From the NCBI RefSeq assembly GCF_005404945.1, contig NZ_BJDG01000003.1:1-64000 (forward strand): a stretch of 64,000 bases of DNA. Reading direction: 5' to 3'. Shown here one piece after another: positions 33,003-53,369 of the stretch. The stretch comes from Lactiplantibacillus pingfangensis (GTDB lineage Bacteria > Bacillota > Bacilli > Lactobacillales > Lactobacillaceae). The translations under genes and the position numbers were made by a program. How positions within the stretch are numbered: position 1 is the stretch's first letter; each line of letters opens with the position of its first letter. The notes beneath the pieces were generated by a model. It did no database searches. It had not been told where the DNA came from and was given only the letters and a program-made list of their open reading frames with translations.

Positions 33003-33191
33003 TGTCGCCTCCGGGCGTTGCTGATTACATGCGGGCGAGGGACCAGGCCAAGCCTGAAGACCGGTCTTGGCCTTCGCCCGGAATGGTTGCAAAAACCGCA
33101 ACTATCCCGGACCGTCCGTCCCGTAAGACCGGCAAAAAAGCGCCGCTCAAACGGGACTTTCACGCCCGATGCAATCTGCAACGCCCTCCAG
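33003..33191. repeat. Dispersed structured element, family R1, copy B
   Basis: The left arm (gggcgttgctgat) and right arm (atctgcaacgccc) are complementary, yet differ in sequence from the arms of copy A (ggttgggactgat / atcagtcccaacc). The interior shares long blocks with copy A. Like copy A it lies just downstream of a terminator. Confidence 0.75.
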
Positions 33192-33520
33192 CTAGGTTAG
33201 TACCAAGGCATTACGCCGGGACAGTTGAACTTTAAATGGTTTTTGGCGTTCAATCACCTTAAACTGTACGTTATCACGGAGACTGGCACTTGACGGAAGC
33301 TTGCCTAGGTGCAGCGGAAAGCTTAGTCGTATCTGACACCCCAAGGAGTATTAGGTGCAACTGGTGGCAATCCACCAACTACGGGACATCTAAACCGCAA
33401 CTGGGCGGATATCAAACTGTTTTCTGACCCAGATTTAAAAGGGTCAACTAGCTGGCATCAGTAGCTGTAAGTAGCCATCGGCGGTATATATATCGGCACA
33501 AACACCAAGGACAATCTTAG

Positions 33521-33720
33521 GGTAAAGCTAGTTTGGATGCGATACTTAGAATTATTGATGCCCATCAAAATGGCAATTATCGCCAGAGTTTAATTAAAGC
33601 TGTACAATTGGTGACTCGCGGTGTCCAAGAGAAATTAAAAGTGAACACTTAGGCATCACTTTGGAACGGATCTACGTTGATGCGCCACGAGTCTGGCAAA
33701 GAGATTTAGGTGACTGGTGA
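33521..33720 (+). pseudogene. Possible remnant of a frameshifted gene
   Basis: The frame GKASLDAILRIIDAHQNG...VQEKLK runs to a stop at 33650-33652. Shifting the frame near 33640 continues it as EHLGITLERIYVDAPRVW...LGDW to a stop at 33718-33720. Both parts look protein-like and lack a start codon or ribosome-binding site. I cannot assign a family; it may be chance. Confidence 0.3.
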
Positions 33721-33729
33721 TTTAAAATA

Positions 33730-33940
33730 ATGCACATCTCTAGCCGTGAGGGGGCTTCGTTTGGGGCTCAGCCGTGGCATTTGACTTAGCGTGGTGGTTT
33801 TTCCGCGGTTAGTCAAAAACCAGCTTTTGAGACCGCTCTTTGGCTCAAAAATGGTTCACAGCGTTCCAGCCCCAAACGAAGCCCCCGGTAGGCGGAAATT
33901 AGCAGTTAGTCACTAATCAATTAGCGAGTTGGAAATTGGC
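33730..33940. repeat. Dispersed structured element, family R3, copy 1
   Basis: It is nearly identical to 52630-52845 over about 175 bases, with a more diverged tail. A perfect 19-bp outer stem (gggggcttcgtttggggct at 33750-33768, complement at 33868-33886) encloses two further helices: TTTGACT/AGTCAAA, and AACCA-TTTTGAG/CTCAAAA-TGGTT. No reading frame and no T-run. Confidence 0.8.
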
Positions 33941-34198
33941 AAAGTAGACAAGACAAAATATTGAATATATTCAGCCGATTAACAGCGGCTAATCTGGTGT
34001 TTTGAAAGATATAATGAGTTAAGTATGGAATTAGCGGAGGGTAATATGGGTTTTAACTGAACAATTTCAAAATTAAAAAATAGCTATGGATCGCTTGATA
34101 TTAGGAATCAGAGCCATTGATCACTTGAGAAGATCAAAAAAGTTGCAATTAGGGCTTTGCTAATTTTGTGACCAGTGCTATAATATTTCTTGTCGGAA

Positions 34199-34223
34199 AA
34201 ATATGCGTTTCAAAAGCATATTT
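34199..34223. repeat. Inverted repeat upstream of the tRNA promoter
   Basis: AAATATGC and GCATATTT flank a 9-base spacer, 25 bases upstream of the tRNA promoter. A possible TATAAT box lies just before it. Role unknown. Confidence 0.35.
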
Positions 34224-34246
34224 ATCCAAAAAGATTTAAAAAGATG

Positions 34247-34275
34247 TTGACAGTTATTCAACATGATGGTAAAGT
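34247..34275 (+). promoter_or_regulatory. Promoter of the tRNA cluster
   Basis: -35 TTGACA (34247-34252), 17-bp spacer, -10 TAAAGT (34270-34275), about 70 bases ahead of the first tRNA. Confidence 0.65.
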
Positions 34276-34346
34276 TAAATAGTTGTCACGGCTTAACAGT
34301 AAGCACTGTCTGGAACGACAACAAGGCATGGTTAATTATTAATCAT

Positions 34347-34428
34347 GCGGGTGTGGCGGAACTGGCAGACGCGCTAGATTTAGGTTCTAGTGTCTTACGA
34401 CGTGGGGGTTCGAGTCCCTTCACCCGCA
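34347..34428 (+). tRNA. tRNA-Leu (UAG)
   Basis: Acceptor GCGGGTG/CACCCGC, long variable arm, anticodon TAG in the loop attTAGgt, T arm GGTTCGAGTCC. CCA is not encoded. Confidence 0.96.
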
Positions 34429-34431
34429 CAT

Positions 34432-34504
34432 GCCGACTTAGCTCAGTTGGCAGAGCATCTCACTAGTAATGAGGAGGTCGGAGGTTCGAATCCTCTAGTC
34501 GGCA
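34432..34504 (+). tRNA. tRNA-Thr (AGU)
   Basis: Acceptor GCCGACT/AGTCGGC, anticodon stem TCTCA/TGAGG with loop ctAGTaa, T arm GGTTCGAATCC. CCA is not encoded. Confidence 0.95.
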
Positions 34505-34531
34505 TTCTCCATCAATTAAATAGTTTTTTAT

Positions 34532-34603
34532 GCGGAAGTAGTTCAGTGGTAGAACATCACCTTGCCATGGTGGGGGTCGCGAGTTCGAATCTCGTCTTCC
34601 GCT
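34532..34603 (+). tRNA. tRNA-Gly (GCC)
   Basis: Acceptor GCGGAAG/CTTCCGC, anticodon loop ttGCCat, T arm GAGTTCGAATCTC, discriminator U as usual for glycine. CCA is not encoded. Confidence 0.95.
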
Positions 34604-34611
34604 TTTAATTT

Positions 34612-34697
34612 GCCGGGGTGGCGGAATTGGCAGACGCACAGGACTTAAAATCCTGCGGTTAGTAATAACCGTACCGGTTCGACCCCGGTCCTCGGCA
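34612..34697 (+). tRNA. tRNA-Leu (UAA)
   Basis: Acceptor GCCGGGG/CCTCGGC, anticodon stem CAGGA/TCCTG with loop ctTAAaa, long variable arm, T arm GGTTCGACCCC. Confidence 0.96.
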
Positions 34698-34707
34698 TTT
34701 TAAATAT

Positions 34708-34781
34708 GCACCCATAGCGCAATTGGATAGAGTGTCTGACTACGAATCAGAAGGTTGTAGGTTCGACTCCTACTGGGTGCA
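34708..34781 (+). tRNA. tRNA-Arg (ACG)
   Basis: Acceptor GCACCCA/TGGGTGC, anticodon stem TCTGA/TCAGA with loop ctACGaa (A34 normally edited to inosine), T arm GGTTCGACTCC. Confidence 0.95.
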
Positions 34782-34788
34782 TTAGTAT

Positions 34789-34862
34789 CGGGAAGTAGCT
34801 CAGCTTGGTAGAGCACCTGGTTTGGGACCAGGGGGTCGCAGGTTCGAATCCTGTCTTCCCGA
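34789..34862 (+). tRNA. tRNA-Pro (UGG)
   Basis: Acceptor CGGGAAG/CTTCCCG, anticodon stem CCTGG/CCAGG with loop ttTGGga, T arm GGTTCGAATCC. Confidence 0.95.
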
Positions 34863-34872
34863 TCGATCTCAA

Positions 34873-34904
34873 CAGTCTTAGTTATTGTAACTAGGGCTTT
34901 TTAT
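34873..34904 (+). terminator. Hairpin between the two tRNA-Pro genes
   Basis: AGTCTTAGTT / AACTAGGGCT form a stem with some wobble, followed by TTTTT. It may separate the last tRNA from the main tRNA transcript or allow partial read-through. Confidence 0.6.
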
Positions 34905-34917
34905 TTAAACTTTTTAA

Positions 34918-34991
34918 CGGGAAGTAGCTCAGCTTGGTAGAGCACTACGTTCGGGACGTAGGGGTCGCAGGTTCAAATCCTGTTTTCCCGA
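34918..34991 (+). tRNA. tRNA-Pro (CGG)
   Basis: Acceptor CGGGAAG/TTTCCCG (one G-U), anticodon stem CTACG/CGTAG with loop ttCGGga, T arm GGTTCAAATCC. Nearly identical to the UGG gene outside the anticodon arm, consistent with duplication. Confidence 0.95.
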
Positions 34992-35012
34992 TTACGACTA
35001 AACCACAGAGAG

Positions 35013-35039
35013 ATCCAGTCAATTTGGCTGGATTTTTTT
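35013..35039 (+). terminator. Terminator of the tRNA cluster
   Basis: Stem atccagtc / ggctggat followed by ttttttt. Confidence 0.85.
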
Positions 35040-35267
35040 GTCGCCTTTTTGAACGACCAATTGGCTGTTAAACAGGTCGGTGAAAAATAGCGCTCCAACA
35101 CTTGTCTGCGGGCAAGCAAACCGTCATGATAGTTCAGTGATAGAATTATTGAAATCTTTTTAAACGGCCGGCTTGATTTTCGGTTCAATCAATTGAATGC
35201 AACTGCGCTGCGTGCTATGCTTTAACAACCGTGGGAGGCTAGTTGCGCCGCCCTTTAGGTGAAATTC

Positions 35268-35316
35268 TTTGCAATTTGTTTTTATCCTCGTATAATGAAA
35301 GTCAATATTAGTCAAA
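35268..35316 (+). promoter_or_regulatory. ctsR-clpC promoter with CtsR operator
   Basis: -35 TTTGCA (35268-35273), 17-bp spacer, -10 TATAAT (35291-35296). The CtsR heptad pair AGTCAAT-ATT-AGTCAAA (35300-35316) starts four bases after the -10, covering the transcription start. This position fits repression by CtsR and heat-shock release. Confidence 0.88.
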
Positions 35317-35338
35317 GATAATGTAAAGGGTGAAGCAG

Positions 35339-35806
35339 ATGCAAAGTCAAAATATCTCCGATATCATCGAAAAATATTTAAAAAGTATTTTGGCGGACGC
35401 TGAGCACGTTGAAATTCGGCGATCAGAAATTGCTGACCTATTCAACGTGGTCCCTTCTCAAATCAATTATGTGATTAAGACGCGTTTCACCATTCAAAAT
35501 GGTTACTTAGTTGAAAGTAAACGTGGTGGTGGTGGCTATATTCGCATTGAGAAGGTAAACCTCCTAGATGACGCTGACGTTTTGGATACCTTGATTCAAG
35601 TTATTGGGGATTCAATCACGCAACGGGATGCCTACGCGGTCGTCCAAAGTCTCTATGAAGATGATGTGTTAAATCGCAGGGAAGCCCAATTAATTTTAGT
35701 CGCGACGGATCGTAACACGCTTGCTGTGGACGATCATGACTTGGAAAATAGTCTGCGGGCGCGCATTATAATTGGAATCTTGAACCACCTGCGTTATGAA
35801 AGTTAA
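35339..35806 (+). CDS. ctsR: Class III heat-shock repressor CtsR
   Basis: 155 residues. The N-terminal winged helix (ISDIIEKYLKSIL...RRSEIADLFNVVPSQINYVIKTRF) ends in the glycine-rich wing (SKRGGGGYIRI), whose Arg-Gly tip is the known thermosensor and DNA contact in CtsR. The C-terminal dimerisation helices follow. It represses clp genes at normal temperature. The ATG at 35339 follows AAGGGTG; a GTG at 35330 overlaps that site. It is first gene of the ctsR-clpC operon and its operator lies upstream, so it is autoregulated. Confidence 0.95.
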   Translation: MQSQNISDIIEKYLKSILADAEHVEIRRSEIADLFNVVPSQINYVIKTRFTIQNGYLVESKRGGGGYIRIEKVNLLDDADVLDTLIQVIGDSITQRDAYAVVQSLYEDDVLNRREAQLILVATDRNTLAVDDHDLENSLRARIIIGILNHLRYES

Positions 35807-35824
35807 GGAAAGCGAGGAATCGCA

Positions 35825-38329
35825 ATGGATAACCTATTTACCCCGAGTGCCAAGAGTGTCTTAGTTTTAGCGCAAGAACAAGCTAAGTATTTTAAACATC
35901 AAGCAGTAGGAACGGAACATTTATTATTGGCATTGGCAATCGAGAAAAATGGGATTGCTAATAAAGTCTTACAACAATATGCGGTTACTGAGGACGATAT
36001 TCGTGAAGAAATTGAACGCTTCACGGGTTATGGCACCTTAAGTAACGTTGGCAAGGATACTTATTTGCCTTATTCACCAAAAGCCAAAGAAATTTTGTCG
36101 GTGGCTGGTGATGAAGCCAAACGTTTAGGCGCCAATAAGATTGGTACTGAACATTTGTTGTTGGCAATGTTGTCAGACGAAAGTATCCTGTCCTCGCGTA
36201 TTTTAATGAATTTAAATTTGGATTTAGGTCAGACTCGCAAAGTTGTCTTGCGTAAGCTTGGTGTCAGTGATGCTATGGGCAAGCGCAAGGGCAACAGTCA
36301 AATTCGTGGTGGCAAGAAGGCGGAAGGGACGCCGACTTTGGATTCATTAGCTCGCGATTTGACTCAGTTAGCCAGTGAACAACAAATGGATCCCGTCGTT
36401 GGCCGTTCCAAAGAGGTCAAACGGGTTATTCAAATCTTGTCACGCCGGACGAAGAACAACCCAGTCTTGATTGGTGAACCAGGTGTTGGTAAAACTGCGA
36501 TTGCAGAAGGTTTGGCACAAAAAATTGTTGCTGGTGATGTCCCGAGCGACATGGCTGACAAGCGCTTGATGATGCTTGATATGGGCTCACTCGTGGCTGG
36601 AACGAAGTATCGTGGTGAATTCGAAGATCGGTTAAAGAAAGTGATCGACGAAATTTACAATGATGGTCACGTCATCCTCTTTATTGATGAATTACACACG
36701 TTAATTGGTGCCGGTGGGGCTGAAGGTGCAATCGACGCCTCCAACATTTTGAAGCCAGCTTTGGCACGTGGTGAACTCCAAACGATTGGTGCTACAACTT
36801 TAAATGAATACCAAAAGTATATTGAGTCTGATGCGGCCTTAGAACGGCGGTTTGCGACGGTCATGGTTGATGAACCAACGCCAGATGAAGCGGTTGAAAT
36901 TTTAACCGGCTTGCGGCCACGCTATGAAGAACATCATCACGTCAATATTACCGATGAAGCTGTGGAACAAGCAGTTAAGCTGTCCAGTCGCTATATTAGC
37001 GATCGTTTCTTACCAGATAAGGCGATTGATTTGATGGATGAAGCAGCCGCGAAGGTTCGGATTGATCAGATGGATCAGCCAACTAAGCTGTCAAAGAATC
37101 AAGACAAATTAGCAGAACTGCGCCAGCAAAAAGAAACTGCCATCGAAGATCAGGATTTCGAACAAGCAGCGGATATTCGTAAAAAAGAAATGAAACTCAA
37201 GGATCGTTTAGATAGTCTGACGGCGGCGCAAGAAGCGGCGGCTGAAGATGGCGATGGTCCTAAGTATGCGTTAAATGTGACTGCTGAAGATATTGCGCAG
37301 GTCGTGGCTGAATGGACCGGGGTGCCCCTCACCCAGTTGCAAAAGACTGAAAGTGAACGGCTCGTTAACTTGGAAAGCATTTTGCATGAACGGGTTGTCG
37401 GCCAACCTGAGGCGGTCTCCGCGGTGGCACGTGCGATTCGGCGGGCCCGTAGCGGGTTGAAAGATCCGAGTCGACCAATTGGCTCCTTCATGTTTCTTGG
37501 TCCAACTGGGGTCGGGAAGACTGAACTAGCCAAGGCATTAGCCGAAGCGATGTTTGGTTCGGAAGACAACATGATTCGGATTGACATGTCAGAATATATG
37601 GAACGCTATTCAACGAGCCGCTTGATTGGGTCAGCCCCCGGTTATGTCGGTTATGACGAAGGTGGGCAATTGACAGAGAAAGTTCGTCAAAAGCCATACT
37701 CCGTTGTACTATTTGATGAAGTTGAAAAGGCCCATCCAGATGTCTTTAATATTTTGTTACAAGTCTTGGATGATGGTTACTTAACTGATTCAAAGGGTCG
37801 TAAAGTTGATTTCCGAAACACCATTTTGATCATGACTTCTAACTTGGGTGCAACCACGCTTCGTGATGAAAAGTCGGTTGGTTTCGGTGCTGCTGATCAT
37901 GCGAATGATTACAAAGCGGTTTCGGCCACGATTCATGAAGAATTGCGCAAGGCCTTCCGACCAGAATTCTTAAATCGGATTGACGAAACGATTGTCTTCC
38001 ATTCCTTGAATCGGGACGAATTACATGAAATCGTGAAGTTAATGGCGACTGAAATTGTTGATCGCGTCGCACAGCAAGGCATTAAAATCAAAATCACCCC
38101 AGCGGCAATTGATGTTGTGGCGAAGGCTGGTTTTGATCCTGAATATGGAGCACGACCAATTCGGCGGGCATTACAGACTGAGGTTGAAGATCGGTTAAGT
38201 GAATCACTCTTAACAGGTGAGATCAAAGTTAACGATCAAGTGACGATTGGGGCTAGCAAAGGCGCGATTACGATTAGCGTCAAGAGCCAACCAAAATCAG
38301 ATGGTCGTTCAACGGTTTCTTCTAAATAA
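35825..38329 (+). CDS. clpC: ATP-dependent Clp protease ATPase subunit ClpC
   Basis: 834 residues. Double Clp-N repeat (1-150), first AAA+ domain (Walker A GEPGVGKT, Walker [12 protein letters not shown]), UVR-containing middle domain ([29 protein letters not shown]), second AAA+ domain (Walker [10 protein letters not shown], Walker [12 protein letters not shown]) and C-terminal helical domain. It unfolds substrates for ClpP and assists protein quality control. It follows ctsR by 18 bases. The mcsA and mcsB genes present between them in Bacillus are absent, as in other lactobacilli. A terminator follows. Confidence 0.96.
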
Positions 38330-38346
38330 CTAAAACTCAATTCATA

Positions 38347-38378
38347 AGCGTTCAGGCAATTGTGTCTGAACGTTTTTT
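38347..38378 (+). terminator. Terminator of the ctsR-clpC operon
   Basis: Stem gcgttcaggc / gtctgaacgt followed by TTTTTT. Confidence 0.85.
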
Positions 38379-38568
38379 GTGGTGTCAGACGCAACTACGC
38401 CGGTAGTAATCGTTAAAAAAATGGTGTAGATTATAAGAGAAAGAAAAACTGTCGTGTGAAGACGCTTCACCGGCAGACGATGGGATTAGAACTTAGACAT
38501 GCACAGCAGAGTGTTAGCTAATGATTGATTTCGAACTTTGACGCATAAAAAGAAAGGTGAGAATTTAA

Positions 38569-39174
38569 ATGGTAACGCGTGCGGAACAACTGGCTAAAAC
38601 GCATCAGGCAATTTTAGATGCCGCACGAGAGTTATTCTTAAAGCATGGCTATGCGGCAACTAGTACGCGCGACATTGCTAATGCGATTGGGATTACTCAG
38701 CCAGCTTTGTATCATCATTTTAAAGATAAAGAAGTTATTTTCCTAGCCGTGATTACAACGGTCGGTGGCGAGATTAAGACGGGCTTGGATCAGATTTTAT
38801 CACAACCGAACCAAGAACCCTTGGAACAATTAACGGATGTTTCCTTGCTCTTAACACATAAGCATCCGGCCGATATCTTCACGTTAATTCACACGAGCTT
38901 TAAAGATTTGTCGCGTGAGCATATTGGTCAGTTAGCAGGCGTTTTCCGTAATGATTATGTGCAGCCATTGCAGACCTTCTTTGGTCAACCGAACTTGCAG
39001 TTGCAAGCGGGGGTCACACCAGCGATGGCGGCTAACTTTTACCTCACGAGCCTGAGCCCGTTGTTCAATAGTTTTCATCGAATTGGGGATCCTGCAGCGG
39101 ATGAACGGACCCAAGTCCAAACGTTGCTCAAGATGATCTTGTTCGGGGTGGCTCGTGAGTCGGAAACAAAATAG
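38569..39174 (+). CDS. TetR/AcrR-family transcriptional regulator
   Basis: 201 residues. The N-terminal helix-turn-helix is typical (AILDAARELFLKHGYAATSTRDIANAIGITQPALYHHFKDKEVIF). The C-terminal helical ligand domain is variable and gives no substrate. The ATG follows AAAGGTGAG. It stands alone between the clpC terminator and the rpoB promoter. No transporter is adjacent, so its target is not evident. Confidence 0.9.
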   Translation: MVTRAEQLAKTHQAILDAARELFLKHGYAATSTRDIANAIGITQPALYHHFKDKEVIFLAVITTVGGEIKTGLDQILSQPNQEPLEQLTDVSLLLTHKHPADIFTLIHTSFKDLSREHIGQLAGVFRNDYVQPLQTFFGQPNLQLQAGVTPAMAANFYLTSLSPLFNSFHRIGDPAADERTQVQTLLKMILFGVARESETK

Positions 39175-39203
39175 GAAACAGTTAATTTTAACGAACGACT
39201 AGG

Positions 39204-39232
39204 TTGACAGCAACCGGTTTTCGATGTATATT
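39204..39232 (+). promoter_or_regulatory. Promoter of rpoB-rpoC
   Basis: -35 TTGACA (39204-39209), 17-bp spacer, -10 TATATT (39227-39232). It gives a leader of nearly 200 bases. Confidence 0.75.
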
Positions 39233-39239
39233 ATAACTT

Positions 39240-39436
39240 GTCTGTAACCGTGAACTTGAACAAAGACGCAATCTATTGTCTGCGTGTTTTGTTAATATAA
39301 GCCCAAAAATAGTCCAACTTAAATGGCTATTTTTGGTTTTTTTATGCCCAAAATTCGGTTTTTAGTGCATTTGTAACACAAATGTAATATTAGCTGATTG
39401 GACCAAGTCACGGAATAATAAGAAGGGGTGAACAAC
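39240..39436 (+). promoter_or_regulatory. rpoB leader with attenuator hairpin (possible Lacto-rpoB motif)
   Basis: The leader contains a perfect 10-bp stem CCAAAAATAG / CTATTTTTGG followed by seven Ts (39303-39343), about 90 bases before rpoB: an attenuator by position. A conserved RNA called Lacto-rpoB is described upstream of rpoB in lactic acid bacteria. Location fits, but I cannot confirm its consensus by eye. Confidence 0.6.
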
Positions 39437-42400
39437 TTGGCCGGACATTTAGTTAAATACGGTAAACACCGTACCCGTAGAAGTTATGCACGTATCAAGG
39501 AAGTTCTTGATTTGCCTAACTTGATTGAAATCCAATCTGATTCATATCAGTGGTTCTTGGATGAAGGTCTCCGGGAAATGTTTGAAGATATTTTGCCAAT
39601 CGACGATTTTGCAGGGAAACTTTCACTTGAATTTGTCGACTATCAACTATTAGAACCAAAGTACACCGTCGATGAAGCCCGTGAACATGATGCGAACTAT
39701 TCTGCACCACTGCATGTGACTTTACGACTGACTAACCATGAAACTGGCGAAATCAAGTCGCAAGATGTATTCTTTGGCGATTTCCCATTAATGACTGAAC
39801 AAGGGACCTTTATTATTAATGGTGCCGAACGGGTCATTGTTTCACAATTGGTTCGTTCACCCGGTGTTTACTTTAATGAAGAATTAGATAAAAATGGTCG
39901 TCCTAGCTATGGCACTACCGTGATTCCTAACCGTGGGGCTTGGCTAGAACTTGAAACCGATGCTAAGAATATTTCTTACGTTCGGATTGACCGGACGCGG
40001 AAGATTCCATTAACAGAATTAGTTCGTGCCTTAGGTTATGGTTCTGACGATGACATCATCGACATGTTGGGTGAAACCGACAGTTTGATCAACACCTTGG
40101 AAAAAGATGTTCATAAAAACACTGATGATTCACGTGTCGAAGAATCCTTGAAGGATATCTACGAACGACTACGTCCAGGCGAACCTAAGACTGCTGACAG
40201 TTCACGGAGTCTGTTGACTGCGCGCTTCTTTGATCCTAAACGTTACGACTTCGCACCAGTTGGTCGTTACAAGGTTAACAAGAAGTTAAGCATGAAGACA
40301 CGTTTGATGGGCTTGACCTTGGCTGAAACCTTGGCCGATCCTGATACCGGTGAAGTGATTGCTCAAAAAGGCGATGTCATCGATAAAAACGTGATGGCTA
40401 AGCTATCGAGCTATTTGGAAAATGACGACTTCAAGACCGTGACCTATACACCGTCTGATGAAGCAGTTGTCACGAATCCAATGGTTTTACAGGTTGTGAA
40501 AGTTTACTCACAAAATGACCCAGAAAAGGTTGTTAACGTGATTGGCAATGGCAACATTGACCTTAAGTTCAAACACATTTTGCCTGCAGATATCATTGCT
40601 TCCATTAACTACTTCTTTAACTTACAAGAAGGCTTAGGCACGACGGATGATATTGATCACTTGGGTAACCGGCGGATTCGTTCCGTGGGTGAATTGTTAC
40701 AAAACCAATTCCGGATCGGGTTATCTCGGATGGAACGGGTTGTTCGTGAACGGATGTCGATTCAAGACGCCGCCACGGTAACACCACAACAATTGATCAA
40801 TATTCGCCCAGTCGTTGCATCAATCAAAGAATTCTTTGGGTCATCACAATTGTCTCAATTCATGGATCAAACGAACCCCTTAGGTGAATTAACGCATAAG
40901 CGTCGTTTATCAGCCTTAGGACCTGGTGGTTTGACTCGTGATCGGGCCGGTTATGAAGTTCGAGACGTGCACTATACCCACTACGGTCGGATGTGCCCAA
41001 TCGAAACACCTGAAGGTCCTAACATTGGTTTGATCAACAGTTTGTCTTCTTATGCCAAGGTTAACCGTTATGGCTTCATCGAAACGCCTTATCGTCGTGT
41101 CGATTGGACGACTCATAAAGTTACCGATAAGATTGACTATTTAGCTGCTGACGAAGAAGACCAATTTGTCATTGCCCAAGCGAACTCGCCATTAACTGAT
41201 GATGGTGCCTTCATTGATGACACAGTTTTAGCCCGTAAAAAGGAAGAAAACTTGGAAATCTCAATCGAAGACGTCGATTACATGGACGTTTCGCCTAAGC
41301 AAGTTGTTGCCGTTGCCACCGCATGTATTCCTTTCTTGGAAAACGATGACTCTAACCGGGCCTTAATGGGTGCCAACATGCAACGACAAGCCGTTCCTTT
41401 GGTTGATCCACATGCCCCATTAATTGGGACTGGGATCGAATACAAAGCGGCGCATGATTCAGGGATTGCCTTAATCAACCGGCATGAAGGAACAGTTGAA
41501 TACGTTGATGCGCGTGAAATTCGGGTTCGACGTGACGATGGTTCCTTAGATACCTACAAATTAATGAAGTTCCGTCGTTCAAATGGTGGTAAAAACTACA
41601 ACCAACGGCCAATCGTTAAAACCGGTGACCATGTTGATAACGACGAAGTCTTAGCCGATGGTCCAGCAATGGAAGGCGGGGAATTAGCTTTAGGCCAAAA
41701 CCCATTAGTTGCTTTCATGACTTGGAACGGTTATAACTTCGAAGATGCCATCATTATTAATGAACGTTTGGTTCGTGAAGATGTTTACACGTCAATTCAT
41801 ATTGAAGAATACGAATCAGAAGCGCGTGATACGAAACTCGGACCTGAAGAAATGACCCGTGAAATTCCTAACGTTGGGGAAGACGCTTTGCGTAACCTTG
41901 ATGAAGATGGGATTATCCGCGTTGGGGCCGAAGTTAAAGATGGTGACATCCTCGTTGGTAAGGTAACGCCTAAAGGGGTTACGGAATTATCAGCCGAAGA
42001 ACGTTTGTTACATGCGATCTTTGGTGAAAAGGCTCGTGAAGTTCGGGATACCTCGCTCCGAGTACCACATGGTGGTGGCGGGATTATTCAAGATGTTAAG
42101 ATCTTTACCCGTGAAAATGGGGACGAATTATCACCTGGTGTCAACATGATGGTTCGGGTCTACATTGCCCAAAAACGTAAGATTCAAGTCGGTGACAAGA
42201 TGGCCGGACGACATGGTAATAAAGGGACCGTTTCAATCGTGGTTCCTCAAGAAGACATGCCGTACATGCCAGATGGCACTCCAATTGATATTATGCTGAG
42301 CCCAATGGGTGTGCCTTCACGTATGAACATCGGACAAGTTTTGGAATTGCATTTAGGTATGGCTGCTCGTAAATTGGGTATTCATATGGCAACGCCGGTC

Positions 42401-43042
42401 TTTGATGGGGCGCGTGATTCTGATATTTGGAAGGCTGTTCGTGAAGCTGGACTCGATGCCGATGGGAAGTCAATCGTCTATGATGGACGGACTGGTGAAC
42501 CATTTGATAAGCGCATCGCCGTTGGTGTCATGCACTATATGAAGCTTAGTCACATGGTTGATGATAAGATTCATGCCCGTTCAATCGGACCTTACTCTTT
42601 AGTTACGCAACAACCACTTGGTGGGAAAGCGCAATTTGGGGGCCAACGTTTCGGTGAAATGGAAGTTTGGGCCTTGGAAGCTTATGGGGCTGCTTACACT
42701 TTACAAGAAATCTTGACTTACAAGTCTGATGACGTGGTTGGTCGGGTTAAGACCTATGAAGCCATTGTTAAGGACGAACCAATTCCTAAGCCAGGCGTGC
42801 CAGAATCATTCCGCGTGTTGGTCAAGGAATTACAAGCATTGGGACTCGATATGAAGGTCTTGGATGCTGAAGATAAAGAAATTGAATTGCGGGATATGGA
42901 TGACGAAGACGACGATGTCGTTAACGTGGATGCCTTGAGCAAAATCCAGCAAGAAAATGAACAAAAAGCTGCTGATAAGCCAGTGAAGACTGACAAACCA
43001 GCCGCAACTGAACCAACAAACGCTCACCAGGATAATCAATAA
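39437..43042 (+). CDS. rpoB: RNA polymerase beta subunit
   Basis: 1201 residues. All hallmark regions are present. The rifampicin-binding cluster reads [31 protein letters not shown] with sensitive-type residues; [12 protein letters not shown] and the C-terminal [25 protein letters not shown] clamp region follow. An acidic, poorly conserved tail ends the protein. Start is TTG at 39437 (MAGHLVKYG), six bases after AAGGGGTG; the GTG at 39428 is inside the ribosome-binding site. Operon with rpoC, 17 bases apart. Confidence 0.97.
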
Positions 43043-43059
43043 AAAGGGAGGTCGGTCCT

Positions 43060-46000: not shown

Positions 46001-46701
46001 TTGAAGAAAATCCAGCAGAACGGACGAAGAAAGTTACGATTAAGGGTGAAACTGATACTCGGACTTATACTTTACCGTTAACAGCGCGGATGGCGGTTAG
46101 TGAAGGCGACTTTATTCACCGTGGTGCAGCGTTGAACGTTGGGTCAATTGATCCTAAGCAATTAATTCAAGTTCGCGATGTTTTATCGACTGAAAACTAC
46201 TTGCTCCGTGAAGTCCAACGGGTTTATCGGATGCAAGGGGTTGAAATTGGTGATAAGCACGTTGAAATCATGATTCGTCAGATGCTTCGTAAGGTCCGGA
46301 TCATGGATCCAGGTGACACTGATGTCTTACCTGGGACTTTGATGGATATTGCTGACTTCAAGGATGAAAACTACAAGACGTTGATTGCTGGTGGGATTCC
46401 AGCAACATCACGGCCAGTTATTCTTGGGATTACCAAAGCTGCCTTGGAAACAAACAGTTTCTTATCAGCGGCGTCATTCCAGGAAACCACTCGGGTCTTA
46501 ACTGATGCGGCTATTCGTGGTAAGAACGATCCATTGATCGGTCTGAAAGAAAATGTCATCATCGGTAAGATTATTCCTGCTGGAACTGGTATGCCTAACT
46601 ATCGGCATATCAAGCCAAAGGAAGTTGGTAACGTGGCTGATGGGGTTTACTCAATCAGCGACCTTGAAAAACAAATGCAAGAACAAGATGCTAGCAAGTA
46701 A
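43060..46701 (+). CDS. rpoC: RNA polymerase beta' subunit
   Basis: 1213 residues. The N-terminal zinc site is [20 protein letters not shown]; the catalytic magnesium motif is [12 protein letters not shown]; the second zinc site is CGTDRG...[13 protein letters not shown]. The trigger loop and C-terminal parts are complete. TTG start with GGGAGGT eight bases upstream. Last gene of the rpoBC operon, with a terminator 16 bases after the stop. Confidence 0.97.
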
Positions 46702-46716
46702 TTGCTGACACTTTAG

Positions 46717-46749
46717 AAAGGACGGCCAGTTAAATGGTCGTCCTTTTTG
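46717..46749 (+). terminator. Terminator of rpoBC
   Basis: The stem aaaggacggcca / tggtcgtccttt is followed by TTTTT. Confidence 0.88.
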
Positions 46750-46783
46750 TTTGCCGTTGATGAATTTGGAATATCTGCCAAAA

Positions 46784-46906
46784 ATTGCCGCTTCCGGTTG
46801 AGACTGATTACATGCGGTCGTGGGACCGGGCGAAGGTCAAGACCGCTCCTCAGGCTTGGCCTGGTCCCTCGTCCGCATGTAATCAGTGATGCCCGGAAGC
46901 GGCAAT
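46784..46906. repeat. Dispersed structured element, family R1, copy C (compact)
   Basis: A 123-base near-palindrome. The outer arms attgccgcttccgg / ccggaagcggcaat are perfect; the next segments actgattacatgcgg / ccgcatgtaatcagt are also perfect, and ggacc/ggtcc closes the centre. The middle of copies A and B is missing. It directly follows the rpoBC terminator. Confidence 0.8.
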
Positions 46907-47043
46907 ATGAACTTCTTTTCATCACCAATTTACTGGTACCACTATATTTATTAGTATTTTTTGTCTTTCAACCGGCAAGCATTGAATTAAACTGAATTTC
47001 AGGTAGTATTGAATCAGAAACATACGAGAGGTTGGGGAATGCA

Positions 47044-47694
47044 ATGTTAAAAGACGAGCAGATTGTTTGGGCGATTCATCAAATGGAAACTGAAATGGGA
47101 CCGGTTGGACCGTCCTTGGATTCACGAACACCGTTTCAGTATCTCGTCTCAGTCATTTTAAGTGCGCAAGCGACCGATGTCTCGGTCAATAAGGTCACAC
47201 CGGTTTTGTTTGAACGTTATCCAGATCCGAAGGCGTTGATGATGGCTGATGTCGAAGATGTTGAACGGCTCATTAAAAGCGTGGGCCTGTTTCATAACAA
47301 GGCCAGAAATATTATCAAGACTGCCCGCATTGTCCATGAAGAACTGAACGATGTGGTCCCAACCGATCGTAAGGGGATCATGGCACTACCGGGTGCTGGC
47401 AGAAAAACTGCGAATGTGGTGTTAAGTGATGTCTTTGATCAAGCAACATTTGCAGTTGACACGCATGTGTCGGCTATTTCGAAACGATTGCATTTTATTG
47501 ATAGCGCCGCTACCCCTTTACAAGTGGAACAAAAAATTGTTGGCGTGTTGCCGCCAGATGAGTTGCATCGTGCGCATCATACGATGATTGAATTTGGCCG
47601 CAAGTACTCAATGAAACTAGCGCCAGCTAAAGAGGTTTGTCAATTGATTATTGATTGTGATCGGTTGGATGAAGAAAACGAAGGACTACAGTAA
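47044..47694 (+). CDS. nth: Endonuclease III (DNA glycosylase/AP lyase), incomplete iron-sulfur site
   Basis: 216 residues. The helix-hairpin-helix LPGAGRKTANVV carries the catalytic Lys121, and Asp139 lies in AVDTHV. It removes oxidised pyrimidines and nicks the strand. The C-terminal [4Fe-4S] loop is degenerate: of the family pattern C-x6-C-x2-C-x5-C, only the last two cysteines (199 and 205) remain. The cluster is therefore probably absent. The ATG at 47044 is chosen after GGGG; a TTG lies at 47032. It is followed by an R2 element with terminator. Confidence 0.9.
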   Translation: MLKDEQIVWAIHQMETEMGPVGPSLDSRTPFQYLVSVILSAQATDVSVNKVTPVLFERYPDPKALMMADVEDVERLIKSVGLFHNKARNIIKTARIVHEELNDVVPTDRKGIMALPGAGRKTANVVLSDVFDQATFAVDTHVSAISKRLHFIDSAATPLQVEQKIVGVLPPDELHRAHHTMIEFGRKYSMKLAPAKEVCQLIIDCDRLDEENEGLQ

Positions 47695-47701
47695 GTTAAA
47701 A

Positions 47702-47880
47702 GCGGAGAGTGGGACCAAAGGCGGGTTGCTACCGAGCATAGCATAGGAAACCGAATGATTGGGACTTTCAATCGTTCGGTTTCCGTAGCTAAGCGGAGGT
47801 CGCAGCCTTTTGTTGCACGTTTCGAGGATAAATATTCGCAGCTACAAACCGAGTCTAGGGCTTTGTCCCGAACTTTTTAA
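47702..47880. repeat. Dispersed structured element, family R2, copy 4, with terminator-like end
   Basis: It starts eight bases after the nth stop. Outer arms gtgggaccaaaggc / gccttttgttgcac (three mismatches); inner stem around ggaaaccgaat / gttcggtttcc; conserved internal segments and the gtttcga-gataaatattcg tail as in copy 3. It ends in GTCTAGGG / CCCGAAC followed by TTTTT. Confidence 0.78.
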
Positions 47881-47887
47881 ATTCTGA

Positions 47888-48568
47888 TCAAACCAGTTGT
47901 GTGGTTAAGATGAAGGCCCAAGTCAGAAATGGGACGAAGGGCAGTTGTCGACGTTGCGGCTGGATGATAAAAATAGTGAGAGCGGCTGCCGACGCCAAGA
48001 TCAGACTGTTGAAGACTAAATTTGGTGTGGCTAGACAGGTTAGCAGGACTAAGATGTCAACATCACCAGCGCCGAACTTTTTCGTTTGCCAAGCAATCAA
48101 GTATAAGCTAATCAACAAGCCAATTAAGATGAACAATGGCACTGACCAGATAAGCGGGTGGATCCAAACGCCGATGATGGCAGGCGCAACTAGCGTAATT
48201 GGGAAAACACTGAAATGGTCATGGTCAGTGAGACTATTAAAAAGCAAGACCGCATAGCCTAACAATAGGGGGGCACTAGTTGTGAGAGGCGCTTGCCAGT
48301 TAAGGAGGACGAGGCAGCCGAAGATGAGTTCGATCCAAGTTGAACGCAAGTTGATCCGCGAGCGACAGTCAAAGCAGCGGCCACGTTGTAGTAAGACGCC
48401 CAGCACCGGGATTAATTGCCAAAATCTTAATTGATGCCGACATTTTGGACATATTGAGCGTTGCGTCGTGTATAATGAGTGTGTGTCGCTGAGTCGTTCG
48501 GCCATGCAAGTAATGAATGAGCCGCAGCAGGCACCACTAATGAAGATGAAGCTATCGAGTAGAAGCAT
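47888..48568 (-). CDS. comC: Type IV prepilin peptidase ComC (A24 family)
   Basis: 226 residues, polytopic. The N-terminal cytoplasmic loop has the two CxxC pairs (CPKC...CFDC) of bifunctional prepilin peptidases. Catalytic aspartates lie in SLTDHDHF and in the GxGD-type motif GAGDVDIL. It cleaves and methylates pre-pseudopilins (ComGC and others) for DNA uptake. Start at ATG 48568, six bases after AAAGGTGG; an earlier TTG at 48574 abuts that site. It converges with nth. No other competence gene lies beside it. Confidence 0.92.
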   Translation of the reverse strand: MLLLDSFIFISGACCGSFITCMAERLSDTHSLYTTQRSICPKCRHQLRFWQLIPVLGVLLQRGRCFDCRSRINLRSTWIELIFGCLVLLNWQAPLTTSAPLLLGYAVLLFNSLTDHDHFSVFPITLVAPAIIGVWIHPLIWSVPLFILIGLLISLYLIAWQTKKFGAGDVDILVLLTCLATPNLVFNSLILASAAALTIFIIQPQRRQLPFVPFLTWAFILTTQLV

Positions 48569-48820
48569 CGTCAACCACCTTTCTAGGAGTTAACTACGCA
48601 AGTTATTTGCGAGTTCACGGTTGACACGATAGTTTCATCATGATACTCTAGTAAAGGTGCTTTTTGCAGACAGATTCCTGTATAGGAATACAGACATGCT
48701 GACTGGTCGGCTAAGCGCATAAACGCCATCGTTCAAGGGTTATTTTTTTGCTTAAAAAAGAACCACCTGGATGTGTGGACTTAAAAATCAGACATTTTTG
48801 GAAGGAGGACACTTTAGAAC
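48569..48820. promoter_or_regulatory. Divergent region between comC and rpsL
   Basis: Contains the comC promoter side and the str operon leader. The inverted repeat ATTCCTGTATAGGAAT (48674-48689) lies in the middle, 131 bases before rpsL, and could be an operator or the base of a leader hairpin. A short A/T-rich stretch precedes rpsL. Confidence 0.45.
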
Positions 48821-49234
48821 ATGCCAACAATTAATCAATTAATTCGTAAAGGTCGTAAATCTAAAGTATCAAAATCAAATGCCCCTGCTTTAAACTTCGG
48901 GTATAACAGTTACAAGAAGGTTGCTACAAACAACCCTGCACCACAAAAACGGGGCGTTGCAACACGTGTCGGCACAATGACTCCTAAGAAGCCTAACTCA
49001 GCTTTACGGAAGTATGCACGTGTCCGCTTATCTAACTTGATTGAAGTTACCGCTTATATTCCTGGTATTGGTCACAACCTCCAAGAACATAGTGTTGTTT
49101 TGATTCGTGGTGGACGTGTAAAGGATTTACCTGGTGTACGTTATCACGTTATCCGTGGTACTTTAGATACGGCCGGCGTCGAAGATCGTCGTCAAAGTCG
49201 TTCTAAGTACGGTACCAAGAAGCCAAAGGAATAA
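48821..49234 (+). CDS. rpsL: Ribosomal protein uS12
   Basis: 137 residues, complete. It forms part of the decoding centre of the 30S subunit. The streptomycin-related residues are the sensitive type: Lys56 in TPKKPNS and Lys101 in GGRVKDLPG (E. coli 43 and 88). GGAGG precedes the ATG. First gene of rpsL-rpsG-fusA. Confidence 0.97.
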
Positions 49235-49248
49235 AGGAGGTAAGTTAA

Positions 49249-49719
49249 ATGCCAAGAAAAGGACAACCAGCAAAGCGCGAAGTTTTGCCAGATCCAATGT
49301 ACGATTCTAAGTTAGTAACGCGTTTAATTAACCACTTAATGTTAGATGGTAAACGTGGGACTGCATCAACTATCTTGTATGATGCGTTTGATCAAATTAA
49401 GGAACAAACTGGAAACGAACCTTTAGATGTCTTCGAAGAAGCAATGAAGAACGTTATGCCAGTACTTGAAGTTAAGGCTCGCCGTGTCGGTGGTTCTAAC
49501 TATCAAGTTCCTATCGAAGTTCGTCCAGATCGTAAGACGACCTTAGCACTTCGTTGGATCGTTCAATATGCACGTTCACGTGGTGAACACACCATGTCAG
49601 ACCGGTTAGCACGTGAAATCATGGATGCTGCCAACAATACTGGTGCCTCAGTTAAGAAGCGTGAAGATACGCATAAAATGGCTGAAGCCAACCGTGCCTT
49701 TGCACATTATCGTTGGTAA
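49249..49719 (+). CDS. rpsG: Ribosomal protein uS7
   Basis: 156 residues, full length. It nucleates assembly of the 30S head and contacts the E-site tRNA. It starts [16 protein letters not shown] and ends in the conserved [22 protein letters not shown] precedes the ATG, 14 bases after rpsL. A hairpin terminator follows before fusA, so some transcripts probably end here. Confidence 0.97.
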
Positions 49720-49770
49720 GATTTCTATGGTTTGGTTGAAGCTTAACTTTAACTAAACGTAACAACAAGG

Positions 49771-49806
49771 TGGCTATTATATGTGAGCATATAGTAGTCA
49801 TTTTTT
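49771..49806 (+). terminator. Hairpin with T-run between rpsG and fusA
   Basis: The 13-bp stem tggctattatatg / catatagtagtca is followed by TTTTTT. It should cut or attenuate read-through from rpsL-rpsG into fusA. Confidence 0.8.
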
Positions 49807-49826
49807 GAAAAAAGTTTTATACTTTT

Positions 49827-49844
49827 CCTACTATATATAGTAGG
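49827..49844. promoter_or_regulatory. Perfect 18-bp palindrome upstream of fusA
   Basis: CCTACTATATATAGTAGG lies between the rpsG hairpin and fusA. It may be an operator, part of a promoter (TATA-like centre) or a second short hairpin. I recognise no regulator for it. Confidence 0.5.
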
Positions 49845-49890
49845 TTTGACGGTTAATTCCATTTAATTGAGAGGAGTAACACATTTTCTA

Positions 49891-51990
49891 ATGGCTAATA
49901 CAAGAGAATTTTCACTCGATAAGACTCGTAACATTGGTATTATGGCCCATATCGATGCTGGTAAGACCACTACTACCGAACGTATCTTGTACTACACTGG
50001 TAAAATCCATAAAATTGGTGAAACCCATGATGGTGCTTCACAAATGGACTGGATGGCCCAAGAACAAGAACGTGGGATTACGATTACCTCTGCTGCGACA
50101 ACTGCTCAGTGGAAGGACCACCGGATCAACATCATTGATACCCCAGGACACGTTGACTTCACTGTTGAAGTTGAACGGTCACTTCGGGTCTTAGATGGTG
50201 CGATTACCGTTTTAGATGCCCAAGCTGGTGTTGAACCTCAAACTGAAACTGTTTGGCGTCAAGCATCAACTTATAACGTTCCTCGGATCGTTTTTGTTAA
50301 CAAGATGGACAAAATTGGTGCGGACTTCAAGTATTCAGTAAGTACGATCCATGATCGTTTACAAGCTAATGCTCACGCTATCCAATTACCAATTGGTGCT
50401 GAAGATAATTTCGAAGGGGTTATTGACTTAATCGAAATGAAGGCTGATCTTTATGATGAAGATCAACTTGGGACTGAATGGGATACTGTTGACATTCCAG
50501 AAGAATACAAAGCAGATGCCCAAGCAGCTCGTGATGACTTGATTGAAGCCTTGGCTGATATCGATGATGGCATCATGGAAAAATACCTTGGCGGTGAAGA
50601 AATCTCTAAAGAAGAGATCAAAGCTGCGATCCGTAAGGGTACCTTGGCACTTGAATTCTTCCCAGTTTTGGCTGGTTCAGCATTCAAGAACAAGGGTGTT
50701 CAAATGTTAATGGACGCGACTGTGGATTACTTACCATCACCACTTGATGTTAAGCCTTACAAAGCCACTGATCCTGAAACTGATGAAGACGTCGACTTAA
50801 TTGCCGGTGATGACAAGCCTTTCGCTGCTTTAGCATTTAAGGTTGCCACCGATCCATTCGTTGGTCGTTTAACCTTTATCCGGGTTTACCAAGGAACTTT
50901 GGAATCTGGCTCATATGTTTTAAATGCTACCAAGGACAAGCGTGAACGTGTCGGTCGTTTACTTCAAATGCATTCTAACCAACGGAAAGAAATCCCAGAA
51001 GTCTTCTCTGGTGATATCGCCGCTGCGATTGGCTTGAAGAACACCACGACTGGTGACTCATTGACTTCTATTGAACATCCATATCATTTGGAATCAATGG
51101 AATTCCCTGATCCCGTTATCCAAGTTGCCGTTGAACCTAAGACTAAGGCTGACCAAGATAAGATGAACGTTGCCTTACAAAAGCTTTCTGAAGAAGATCC
51201 TACTTTCAAGGCTGAAACTAACCAAGAAACTGGTGAAACTTTAATCGCTGGGATGGGTGAATTGCATTTGGACATTATCGTTGACCGGATGCGTCGTGAA
51301 TTCAACGTTGAAGCAACTGTTGGTGCCCCTCAAGTTTCTTATCGTGAAACCTTTACAAAGGCTACCAAAGTTCAAGGTAAGTTCGTTCACCAATCTGGTG
51401 GTAAAGGTCAATATGGGGATGTTTGGGTTGAATTTACACCTAACGAAGAAGGTAAGGGCTTCGAATTCGAAGATGCCATCGTCGGTGGGGTTGTTCCTCG
51501 CGAATACATTCCTTCAGTTGAACAAGGTTTGAAGGAATCAATGGCTAACGGTGTGTTAGCTGGCTATCCTTTAGTTGACGTTAAGGCTAAACTCTATGAT
51601 GGGTCTTACCATGATGTCGATTCTAGTGAAGCAGCCTTCAAGATTGCCGCTTCCTTATCACTACGGAATGCTGCTAAATCAGCTGGTCCTGTTATTTTGG
51701 AACCAATCATGAAGGTTGACATTGTTGCCCCAGAAGATTACTTAGGTGATGTTATGGGCCATGTTACCGCTCGTCGTGGAACTATTGACGGGATGGAAGA
51801 ACGTGGGAACGCACAAGAAGTTCATGCGTTTGTGCCTTTAGCTGAAATGTTTGGTTATGCAACCACTTTACGTTCAGCAACTCAAGGCCGTGGGACTTTC
51901 ACAATGACATTTGATCATTACGAAAAGGTACCTAAGTCTGTTCAAGCTGAAATCATCAAGAAAAATGGCGGCACTCCTGCCGAAGATTAA
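49891..51990 (+). CDS. fusA: Translation elongation factor G
   Basis: 699 residues. GTPase motifs in order: AHIDAGKTT (P-loop), [10 protein letters not shown] (switch I), DTPGHVDF (switch II), NKMD and GSAFKNKG. Domains II-V are complete, ending in [18 protein letters not shown]. It drives ribosome translocation. The ATG at 49891 fits the family N-terminus ([17 protein letters not shown]). The GAGGAG site is 14 bases upstream, longer than usual. The tuf gene that follows fusA in many bacteria is absent, as in other lactobacilli. Confidence 0.96.
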
Positions 51991-52001
51991 TCTTGATTCA
52001 G

Positions 52002-52036
52002 AAAAGTCGTTAAGCAATTTGCTTAGCGGCTTTTTG
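52002..52036 (+). terminator. Terminator of fusA
   Basis: The stem aaaagtcgttaagc / gcttagcggctttt is followed by T residues, 12 bases past the stop. Confidence 0.88.
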
Positions 52037-52629
52037 TTTACGCTAAATTAAGCGTGACGACGAGTAGGGGAATGGAGAAGTGAGCTGTGTCTCAGGAAGC
52101 GGCGTATGCCTCATGCTAATTCCTTGCACGCAGAAACAAGTGACATCACTTCAACACGACTATCATGAAGTCTTACAACTATTGTCCAGATATACTAGAA
52201 GGCAGTTAGCGTGATCGTCGCTGCAATTTAAAATTAGCTGCTGTCGTGCGACCGAACTAACCAGCCTCGCAACGTGCAAAAGTTTGTTTCGAAAAACGAC
52301 CGCGCATAAAAATATGGTCAGGGTAAAAATTTCTTTCGGTAGCAAGATTGAATGACAAAGAAGCAGCTTTCAGATCTAATTGCGTTAACACACATCGACT
52401 AGCGATGGCACAAACTTAGTAAATTAAAAAAGTTAAAAGGAAAAATAACTTTATGATAACCGGGGCTTAAGCATCTTATTCAGACTAGTAATTACGGTGT
52501 TGTTAGTCGGTCTCTGTGCCAACTAGAACTGACAAGGGCTCAAGACGTTATGAAGGGACATGAAAGGTCTATTAGGGATCATTGGTCTTACACGTTGATT
52601 GGATCGGTTAAGGTGTGATCATTAAGAGC

Positions 52630-52845
52630 AATGCACATGACTAGCCGTGAGGGGGCTTCGTTTGGGGCTTAGCCGTGGCATTTGACTTAGCAGGGTGGTT
52701 TGTCCGCGGTTAGTCAAAAACCAGCTTTTGAGACCGCCCTTTGGCTCAAAAATGGTTCATGGCGTTCCAGCCCCAAACGAAGCCCCCGGCAGGCGGAAAG
52801 TAGCGCTAGTCGATAATCAATTCATGGGTTGGAATTTGAATAAAA
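52630..52845. repeat. Dispersed structured element, family R3, copy 2
   Basis: Near-identical to 33730-33905. The perfect 19-bp outer stem is at 52651-52669 and 52769-52787. Inner helices TTTGACT/AGTCAAA and AACCA-TTTTGAG/CTCAAAA-TGGTT are unchanged; differences fall mainly in loops. The tail to about 52845 is more diverged. Confidence 0.8.
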
Positions 52846-53170
52846 GCCCCAACAAGTAATTAATATAGCGAAAACCGTTCGAATAAAAATATGTGCATCG
52901 ACTTGCAATGTTATAAAAATACGAGTAATATGCCTAATGTTGTCTTGCGTATTTTACTAATTAGTCTTAAGCCAATTGGTCAATGGTGATCACAGTAGGT
53001 TAAGACAGAGAATGACTAACACGACTAACTGTAACGGTTGAAAAGCTTGGTTCGCGAATAAAAGTTTGAAAAGACTACTATTCTAAACGAATTTATGTTA
53101 CATTTATTGGTGCTGGTTCAAAAAAGGTAACACGGTTTACAACGATGGTTCGAAAAAAGTGCGTCAGCGC

Positions 53171-53206: not shown

Positions 53207-53369
53207 GCTTGGTATTTAGAAGGGGAGTACTGTACCCCCCAGCATCAAGTAGTCGTAGTTAGCTTTGATGTGAAAGGTTGCGACACGCCCGGCCACATTG
53301 TCATGGGGCGCGGCGGTAATTTTCACGGAGCTAGTCTTATTTTCAAAATAGACGAAGGAGGTCACAACA
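53207..53369 (+). promoter_or_regulatory. S10 operon leader
   Basis: Hairpins are visible: ggggagtac / gtacccccc near 53222-53240, gcatcaa / tttgatg near 53243-53272, and cgccc / gggcg near 53286-53311. This is the position of the ribosomal-protein-regulated S10 leader in other bacteria. The regulator (L4 or another) cannot be told. An open frame running through it into rpsJ out of phase is not a gene. Confidence 0.45.

Follow-up and report, generated by a model that had tools for sequence, protein, structure and literature searches.

In this work, we describe R3, a folded and repeated module that occurs twice in a 64,000-nt stretch of the Lactiplantibacillus pingfangensis genome (positions 1 to 64,000 of contig NZ_BJDG01000003.1, assembly GCF_005404945.1; hereafter, the window). 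On balance, we favor the view that R3 belongs to non-autonomous elements derived from insertion sequences (ISs) of the ISLre2 family and that it insulates the transcripts leaving these elements. That an ISLre2-type transposase placed the elements is well supported, and we infer from the arrangement of the modules that the fold may have an insulating role on outgoing transcripts.

The two R3 cores lie on the forward strand at 33737–33899 and 52638–52800. As an earlier note on this DNA had stated, the two places are nearly the same (33715–33903 vs. 52616–52804, 91% identity over 189 nt; 94% over the aligned 175 nt), and direct reading shows the same 19-bp closing arm, with the same perfect complement, in each of them. 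The fold, which we call R-type, consists of a P1 helix of ~19 bp, an internal loop, a P2 helix and a three-way junction with P3 and P4. The branched structure previously proposed was upheld for copy 1, with a minimum free energy of -86.4 kcal/mol (z = -7.1) that none of 200 shuffles equaled. Our covariance model R1 recovers copy 1 with 158.8 bits (E = 2.6e-46), a score helped by the presence of this very copy in the alignment of the model, and copy 2 with 146.3 bits (E = 1.6e-42).

These copies are not a lone pair, as the earlier note had described them. A genome-wide search (2.9 Mb in 59 contigs) returned 41 rows corresponding to at least 40 copies of the ~160-base fold: 35 near-full-length copies (87–100%), one copy with an internal deletion that was split over two rows, and four divergent copies (71–76%). 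A covariance search adds further divergent copies, for example on contigs C15 and C28, and 40 is therefore a minimum. With so many copies in many genomes, a recent chance duplication restricted to two copies of a single strain, without conservation, no longer accounts for R3. The suspicion that R3 belongs to no named family was borne out, since neither the two window sites nor 38 loci of the own genome gave a score at the gathering threshold of Rfam 15 on the core, and a permissive search of nine loci gave no core match up to E = 5. A description of the repeat was not found in the available portions of the mainly open-access literature searched (PMC2267715, PMC2229807, PMC3049150, PMC3942029). 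Plasmid or phage origin was considered and set aside after a blastn search with the window copy as the only query gave no match, as was viral origin after a scan of viral contigs with one exact pattern; divergent copies would escape both searches.

Mobility is indicated by the element ends. Many copies share a block outside the core ending in AACTTGACACTTAC, and the right end was recognizable in 21 of the 40 copies (at least 10/14 matches within 130 bp), a level that ~5% of shuffled flanks also reach. When a sigma-A promoter (TTGACA-17-TATAAT, maximum score 12) was scored at the 61 offsets from 0 to 60 bp beyond the right end, a single peak emerged at exactly 16 bp, with a mean of 8.57 against a median over offsets of 3.52 (standard deviation of the others 0.46). 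Fifteen of the 21 anchored copies score at least 8 at this offset, whereas at any other offset at most two copies do so. In an unscored side-by-side view, the right end (...CCGAGAAAAACTTGACACTTAC) and the left end (GTTAGTGTNAAATTTTTCTC) look like the ends of intact ISLre2 elements. The left repeat is retained in copies L010, L016, L023 and L024, and BLAST searches with L010 and L016 place it also in L003, L004, L009 and L031, giving ~8 copies in total; 11/14 left-end matches in L001 and L032 were judged to be due to chance.

Copy L016 is flanked by a perfect 9-bp target duplication, and L010 and L024 by duplications matching at 7 of 9 positions (for L023, no right end was recognized). Where both ends are in hand, element size is ~0.9 kb in L010 and L016 and ~0.5 kb in L024, a range of ~0.5–0.9 kb. 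Judged by eye, L016 lies between genes that are presumably tsf and pyrH, with pyrH following the R3 site. Of the 20 other genomes of the genus, 19 are empty at this site: their flanks meet to within ~30 bp, and no core is present. In the remaining genome (G007), an insert of ~0.8 kb occupies the same point and contains an R core (58 bits) with a divergent partner (34 bits). The elements of the two genomes differ in subtype (L317, 1874–2562). They apparently represent independent insertions upstream of the same gene.

Being short and non-coding, with inverted repeats, target duplications and many copies, the elements have the features of miniature inverted-repeat transposable elements (MITEs). 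For the two window copies, in which neither repeat end is clearly recognizable, the most plausible reading is that they are non-autonomous remnants (MITEs) of an IS from the ISLre2 family, a reading based on the matching right ends, the 16-bp phasing, the 9-bp duplication with empty sites, the transposase fossils and an intact IS that carries the fold. Of the two options that the earlier note had put forward, a mobile non-autonomous element is thus supported by repeat ends, by target duplication with empty sites and by transposase fossils; and because the fold sits within an end of an established IS family, ISLre2, R3 qualifies as a MITE of that IS in the sense foreseen there.

In the own genome, the R3 elements contain no intact transposase gene but fragments only, and hence are not autonomous ISLre2 ISs. 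The NCBIfam ISLre2 model, which does give matches elsewhere in the family, detects only a fragment there, inside element L021 and between its two folds, with 44% identity to the intact transposase over 104 aligned positions. In the window, a broken frame on the forward strand at 33470–33688, just before core 1, matches the C-terminus (residues 368–439) of the intact L330 transposase (tblastn, E = 1.9e-7, 40% identity), so that the gap previously described as gene-free holds a coding remnant. These are the two elements, out of 40, with fossils detectable at E = 0.001. The IS256-type transposase (PF00872) had no match in the own genome, and PF06782 had none in the 21 genomes of the genus, its control likewise giving no match anywhere, so that this absence carries no information.

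An intact carrier was found in two genomes of another genus. Loci L330 and L329, which share 98.9% identity over 1,736 bp and so represent a single IS, encode an intact 465-aa ISLre2 transposase (365 bits for L330, cut-off 200). The same fold starts 17 nt past the transposase stop codon (E = 5e-23; z = -9.2 for its own folding), in sense with the transposase and just inside a right repeat that is very like the right repeat of the R3 elements. The transposase frame is readable in 16 of the 25 ISLre2 loci that we compared, and 12 other loci have only 27–60 nt between the stop codon and the element end. In L338 and L339, 236 nt separate the stop codon of an intact ISLre2 transposase from the right end; the model gives E = 0.11 there, which is not convincing although the sequences are similar by eye. 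This stretch holds a CTTAG/CTTAG hairpin resembling P3, and a distant relationship with the module is possible.

The fold itself bears marks of a conserved structure. From 183 profile hits, 174 were full-length (160 distinct), 85 passed a k-mer filter and 81 entered the alignment after four had been dropped by eye. Of its 46 base pairs, 35 have changes on both sides; paired cells reach 94.5% compared with 76.7% in shuffled alignments, covariation is 0.480 against 0.159 (shuffled) and 0.054–0.104 (slid controls), and none of 500 shuffles was as high on any of five measures. These figures are inflated by relatedness, and taking the structure from the same alignment favors it over the slid controls. 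Covariation beyond both kinds of control, judged on the alignment, points to a conserved structure and speaks for the second option of the earlier note, an RNA family, in the sense of a family of folds. In 68 of 85 cores, folding is better for the sense strand than for the complementary one, and G-T outnumbers A-C in paired columns (221 vs. 68, or 151 vs. 68 once a near-constant pair contributing 70 G-T cells is removed).

The cores also have a typical arrangement. Among 116 distinct loci, 43 of the 45 neighboring core pairs within 600 bp are divergent (minus, then plus) and none is convergent. Many elements have a second core nearer the left end and facing the opposite way, with the 3' ends outward. 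In the own genome, 15 of the 35 R3 copies are preceded by a weak partner on the opposite strand. Across the family, the covariance model detects the fold in 124 of 397 genomes and 15 of 40 genera; this search scored at most seven candidates per genome and yields copy numbers for the own genome only. An exact-pattern scan of named genomes gave at least 105 stretches, and the 80 listed are nearly all from Lactiplantibacillus and Levilactobacillus.

The same pair of modules is carried by elements with two types of ends. In L. dongliensis and L. songbeiensis, it resides in elements of ~350–410 bp, plus shorter forms, with ends of another kind (TACGCTTGGTGCTAGTTG). Such ends number 223 and 225 per genome (up to three mismatches), compared with 1 and 3 for a reversed-pattern control, which amounts to ~110 elements per genome beside unrelated genes. 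In 28 elements with both ends (161–410 bp), the flanks match at 7 or 8 of 8 positions in eight cases and at 8 or 9 of 9 in six, and the mean 8-bp flank match is 0.536, whereas mispaired flanks average 0.342 and did not exceed 0.42 in 200 shuffles. A candidate large autonomous element between distant matching ends of L. songbeiensis (L280) was rejected, as it resolved into separate short elements around ordinary-looking genes.

Sites shared between genomes allow the fate of the fold to be followed. Over 29 core comparisons, 93 pairs stayed paired through changes on both sides, 30 stayed paired through a change on one side and 57 were broken. In the same order, the counts are 55, 14 and 25 for 11 older Lactiplantibacillus comparisons and 36, 8 and 16 for eight Levilactobacillus comparisons. 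At site Lev1, the R core is 94% identical, against 63% for the spacer and 67% for the outer flank, the host flanks beyond being 95–98% identical; at Lev4, the core has 91% compared with 82% and 74%, and at Lev6 95% compared with 78% and 88%. Selection on the core at old sites is thus suggestive, not proven. Two related Levilactobacillus genomes (L169 and L170, cores near 6205/6519 and 7572/7866) differ clearly in the cores that they carry at shared intergenic positions, which lie immediately beyond terminator-like stem-loops with T-runs. Candidate causes of these differences are replacement, conversion and repeated insertion.

According to the explanation that we propose, the transposase would act on the two inverted repeats and, as in the rest of its family, set the element down so that 16 bp separate its right repeat from the -35 box of a downstream sigma-A promoter, creating a 9-bp duplication. 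The transposase gene would later decay, leaving only a fragment in the own genome. The module would act at the RNA level: a transcript crossing an element with two divergent cores would reach the sense-strand core last, before its exit, and the folded core might block, process or insulate it, sparing the neighboring promoter or gene. By lowering the cost of an insertion close to a promoter, the fold could remain under selection after the death of the transposase. An exit insulator or processing site would fit the geometry of the pairs and the location of the fold on the promoter side of the IS, and it has a precedent in the cleavage proposed for Correia and ERIC transcripts (PMC2229807). Insertion upstream of promoters also explains why both window copies lie beside translation genes: this location, pointed out in the earlier note, stands, but a functional link with translation as such does not. 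One R3 site (L027) precedes a PyrR leader and another (L016) the gene that is presumably pyrH.

Several observations weigh against this explanation. The minus strand of window copy 1 folds about as well as the sense strand (-86.7 kcal/mol). The absence of a terminator T-run, already remarked on and confirmed by direct reading, means that R3 is not a standard intrinsic terminator, no promoter belonging to the element could be established, and its transcript is so far only predicted. With regard to targeting, six of the 21 anchored copies score below 8 at offset 16 (L003, L012, L016, L017, L020 and L034); at the 16-bp place, L330 has a weak -35 box (TTCACT) with TATAAT and L329 has no promoter; and promoter targeting by the ACGCTTGG-ended MITEs was looked for in 63 flanks and not seen. 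The fold is present at E ≤ 0.01 in only two of the 25 ISLre2 loci (L330 and L329, that is, one IS), which implies an add-on module that is dispensable for ISLre2 transposition. At shared sites, ten comparisons between L. dongliensis and L. songbeiensis gave 2 pairs kept through two-sided change, 8 kept through one-sided change and 16 broken, so that the young copies of these sister species look like neutral decay. For Lev2, Lev3 and one of L039/L061 (65–67% identity), element replacement is more likely than mutation in place, and at Lev5 the cores (88–91%) are no better kept than their surroundings (89–96%).

The uncompensated decay of young copies also argues for a serious rival, namely that the fold has no function at present and that R3 is a selfish MITE whose compensatory changes come from active source elements or gene conversion. 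The replacement of elements at the same site in Levilactobacillus agrees with this idea, and MITE biology would suffice to explain the spread. It is a possible explanation, but one that we doubt, given that pairs kept through two-sided change exceed the broken ones (55 vs. 25) at the older shared sites of Lactiplantibacillus, some of which may be replacements, and that the R core of Lev1 is so much better preserved than its spacer and outer flank. If the fold instead acted as single-stranded DNA, in the manner of the hairpin ends of IS200/IS605 or REP elements, one strand folding better than the other would be equally expected, and the position near the element ends would suit this role. As most core pairs are divergent, however, no single strand has both cores in sense form, and inverted repeats with duplications of 8–9 bp are of the DDE type; we consider such a role unlikely.

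The fold might alternatively serve transposition itself, as an RNA (or RNA-like) cofactor in cis for movement or target finding, comparable to the guide-like RNAs of some other ISs. It adjoins the transposase, lying between stop codon and right repeat, it is kept in elements that contain no gene at all, and the divergent pairs with outward 3' ends and the strong covariation are compatible with such a task. On the other hand, 23 of the 25 ISLre2 loci lack a match at E = 0.01 (L338/L339 not being convincing), the module is common to two element types that differ in ends and targeting, and the alignment shows nothing like a variable guide segment, all of which make a cofactor improbable. A structured element near gene starts also calls to mind a riboswitch-like cis-regulatory leader of the downstream genes. 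The anchored right ends of the own-genome copies, however, lie upstream of the promoter and not inside a leader, and the neighboring genes are unrelated, in two species with ~110 elements per genome; these facts disfavor a riboswitch or ordinary leader, as do the missing T-run and the permissive Rfam search of nine loci, and we attach hardly any weight to it.

An extension of the insulating role, which we regard as rather doubtful, is that R3 represents a general exit module of transposons: a portable structured RNA used with at least two types of transposon ends in 15 Lactobacillaceae genera and kept by the host at old sites. Under the same conjecture, the module would let an element live beside host promoters without transcriptional damage, or would take part in targeting through RNA polymerase. 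In any case, R3 joins a promoter-targeting Mutator-like IS to a widespread RNA-like fold that is missing from Rfam. If the fold has a job, it would show how mobile DNA becomes tolerable beside promoters, and it could account for many gene-free gaps in the genomes of lactobacilli, bacteria with wide use in food. The question is directly testable in a natural set that comprises orthologous sites with and without an insertion as well as ISs with and without the module.

Some known systems resemble R3 in part. The EFAR repeats of Enterococcus faecalis, a species from a related order, are branched repeats of ~170 bp; compared by description and not by sequence, they insert into stem-loop targets, unlike R3. 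Omega RNAs and the bridge RNA of IS110 are structured RNAs located between a transposase-type gene and the element end, but they belong to other enzyme families, which they guide; the likeness with R3 lies in structure and placement. The inverted repeats and the 8–9 bp duplications argue against membership in IS200/IS605 or REP/BIME. A close likeness is with the TnGBS and ISLre2 transposases (p-MULT 3), which are prokaryotic Mutator-like enzymes. In the part of their account consulted, these insert 15–17 bp upstream of the sigma-A -35 box with duplications of 8–9 bp, in an oriented way that leaves the right repeat beside the promoter (PMC3942029). R3 elements share the 16-bp phasing, the promoter-side right repeat and the duplications, and they show matching repeat ends and a transposase fossil. 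They differ in that a working transposase is missing from the window elements, which contain one or two folded modules instead; no such module is described in that part of the account, and the term MITE is absent from the text (PMC3942029).

Correia/NEMIS, ERIC, RUP and CIR are short non-coding MITEs of high copy number with transcripts predicted to fold, and Correia (through RNase III) and ERIC (through RNase E) were proposed to alter mRNA stability, according to the sections consulted (PMC2229807). In the same sections, MITEs of this type are under 200 bp and form long stem-loops, whereas L010 and L016 measure ~0.9 kb (PMC2229807). R3 departs from them further in its three-way junction, invariant internal motifs, two-sided covariation, divergent pairs and spread over 15 genera. 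The pneumococcal BOX, RUP and SPRITE repeats, likened here to R3 by description and not by sequence, are folded, present in high copy number in a Gram-positive genome and judged to be non-autonomous mobile elements with likely effects on expression; the portion of their description consulted reports no promoter phasing (PMC3049150).

Within the window, the modules permit the approximate extent of element 1 to be placed at 32950–33975 on the forward strand, between an open reading frame ending at 32879, which we take to be serS following the earlier note, and the tRNA cluster. No clear inverted repeat was seen on either side of it, and its ends are too decayed for exact placement. Upstream of core 1, on the reverse strand at 33001–33198, lies the divergent partner of the same element, an L-type fold with an extra arm, which scores 33.7 bits (E = 2e-8) with a model built without it. 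Core 2 lies upstream of the promoter region of a gene that is presumably rpsJ, a label likewise taken from the earlier note. A possible decayed left inverted repeat of element 2 at 52318–52350 (forward strand) matches the left repeat of intact-ended copies at 22 of 33 bases, this being the best place in 51990–52640, with 16 matches at the next best unrelated place. Its possible decayed right end (52855–52885, forward strand) is a weak match to the right repeat (20/36) just upstream of the rpsJ -35 region, and the sequence beyond it aligns with species having no core at that site.

At the rpsJ site, a core of another subtype, accompanied by a partner, is present in L. nangangensis (115 bits) and L. 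daoliensis (108 bits), G007 has a weaker sense core (48 bits), and G019 and G004 have an antisense match further upstream; no match at E = 0.01 was found in the other 15 of the 21 genomes within at most 1.5 kb upstream (99 bp in G002). Between element 2 and the downstream gene, at 53257–53359, Rfam recognizes an S10-Clostridia ribosomal leader (37.1 bits, threshold 35.1).

Elsewhere in the window, an isolated L-type partner fold of another element lies on the reverse strand at 8544–8738 (47.5 bits, E = 1.4e-12), with no R-type partner found by model R1 within reach inside the window. At 46784–46906, two L-type-like arms face each other as a 52-nt inverted repeat separated by 19 nt; model R1 has no match there up to E = 1, and the structure is possibly a rearranged or truncated partner module. 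Another interspersed repeat (families D2–D4) occurs at 15357–15578, 20128–20300 and 47706–47878, its copies being 61–87% alike and sharing the blocks CTAAGCGGAGG.CGCAG ... CACGTTTCGACTATAA; the reverse complement of the D2–D4 block is also present downstream of a core in another species (flank of L054). A lysine riboswitch, with a strong Rfam match, is located at 27873–28056.

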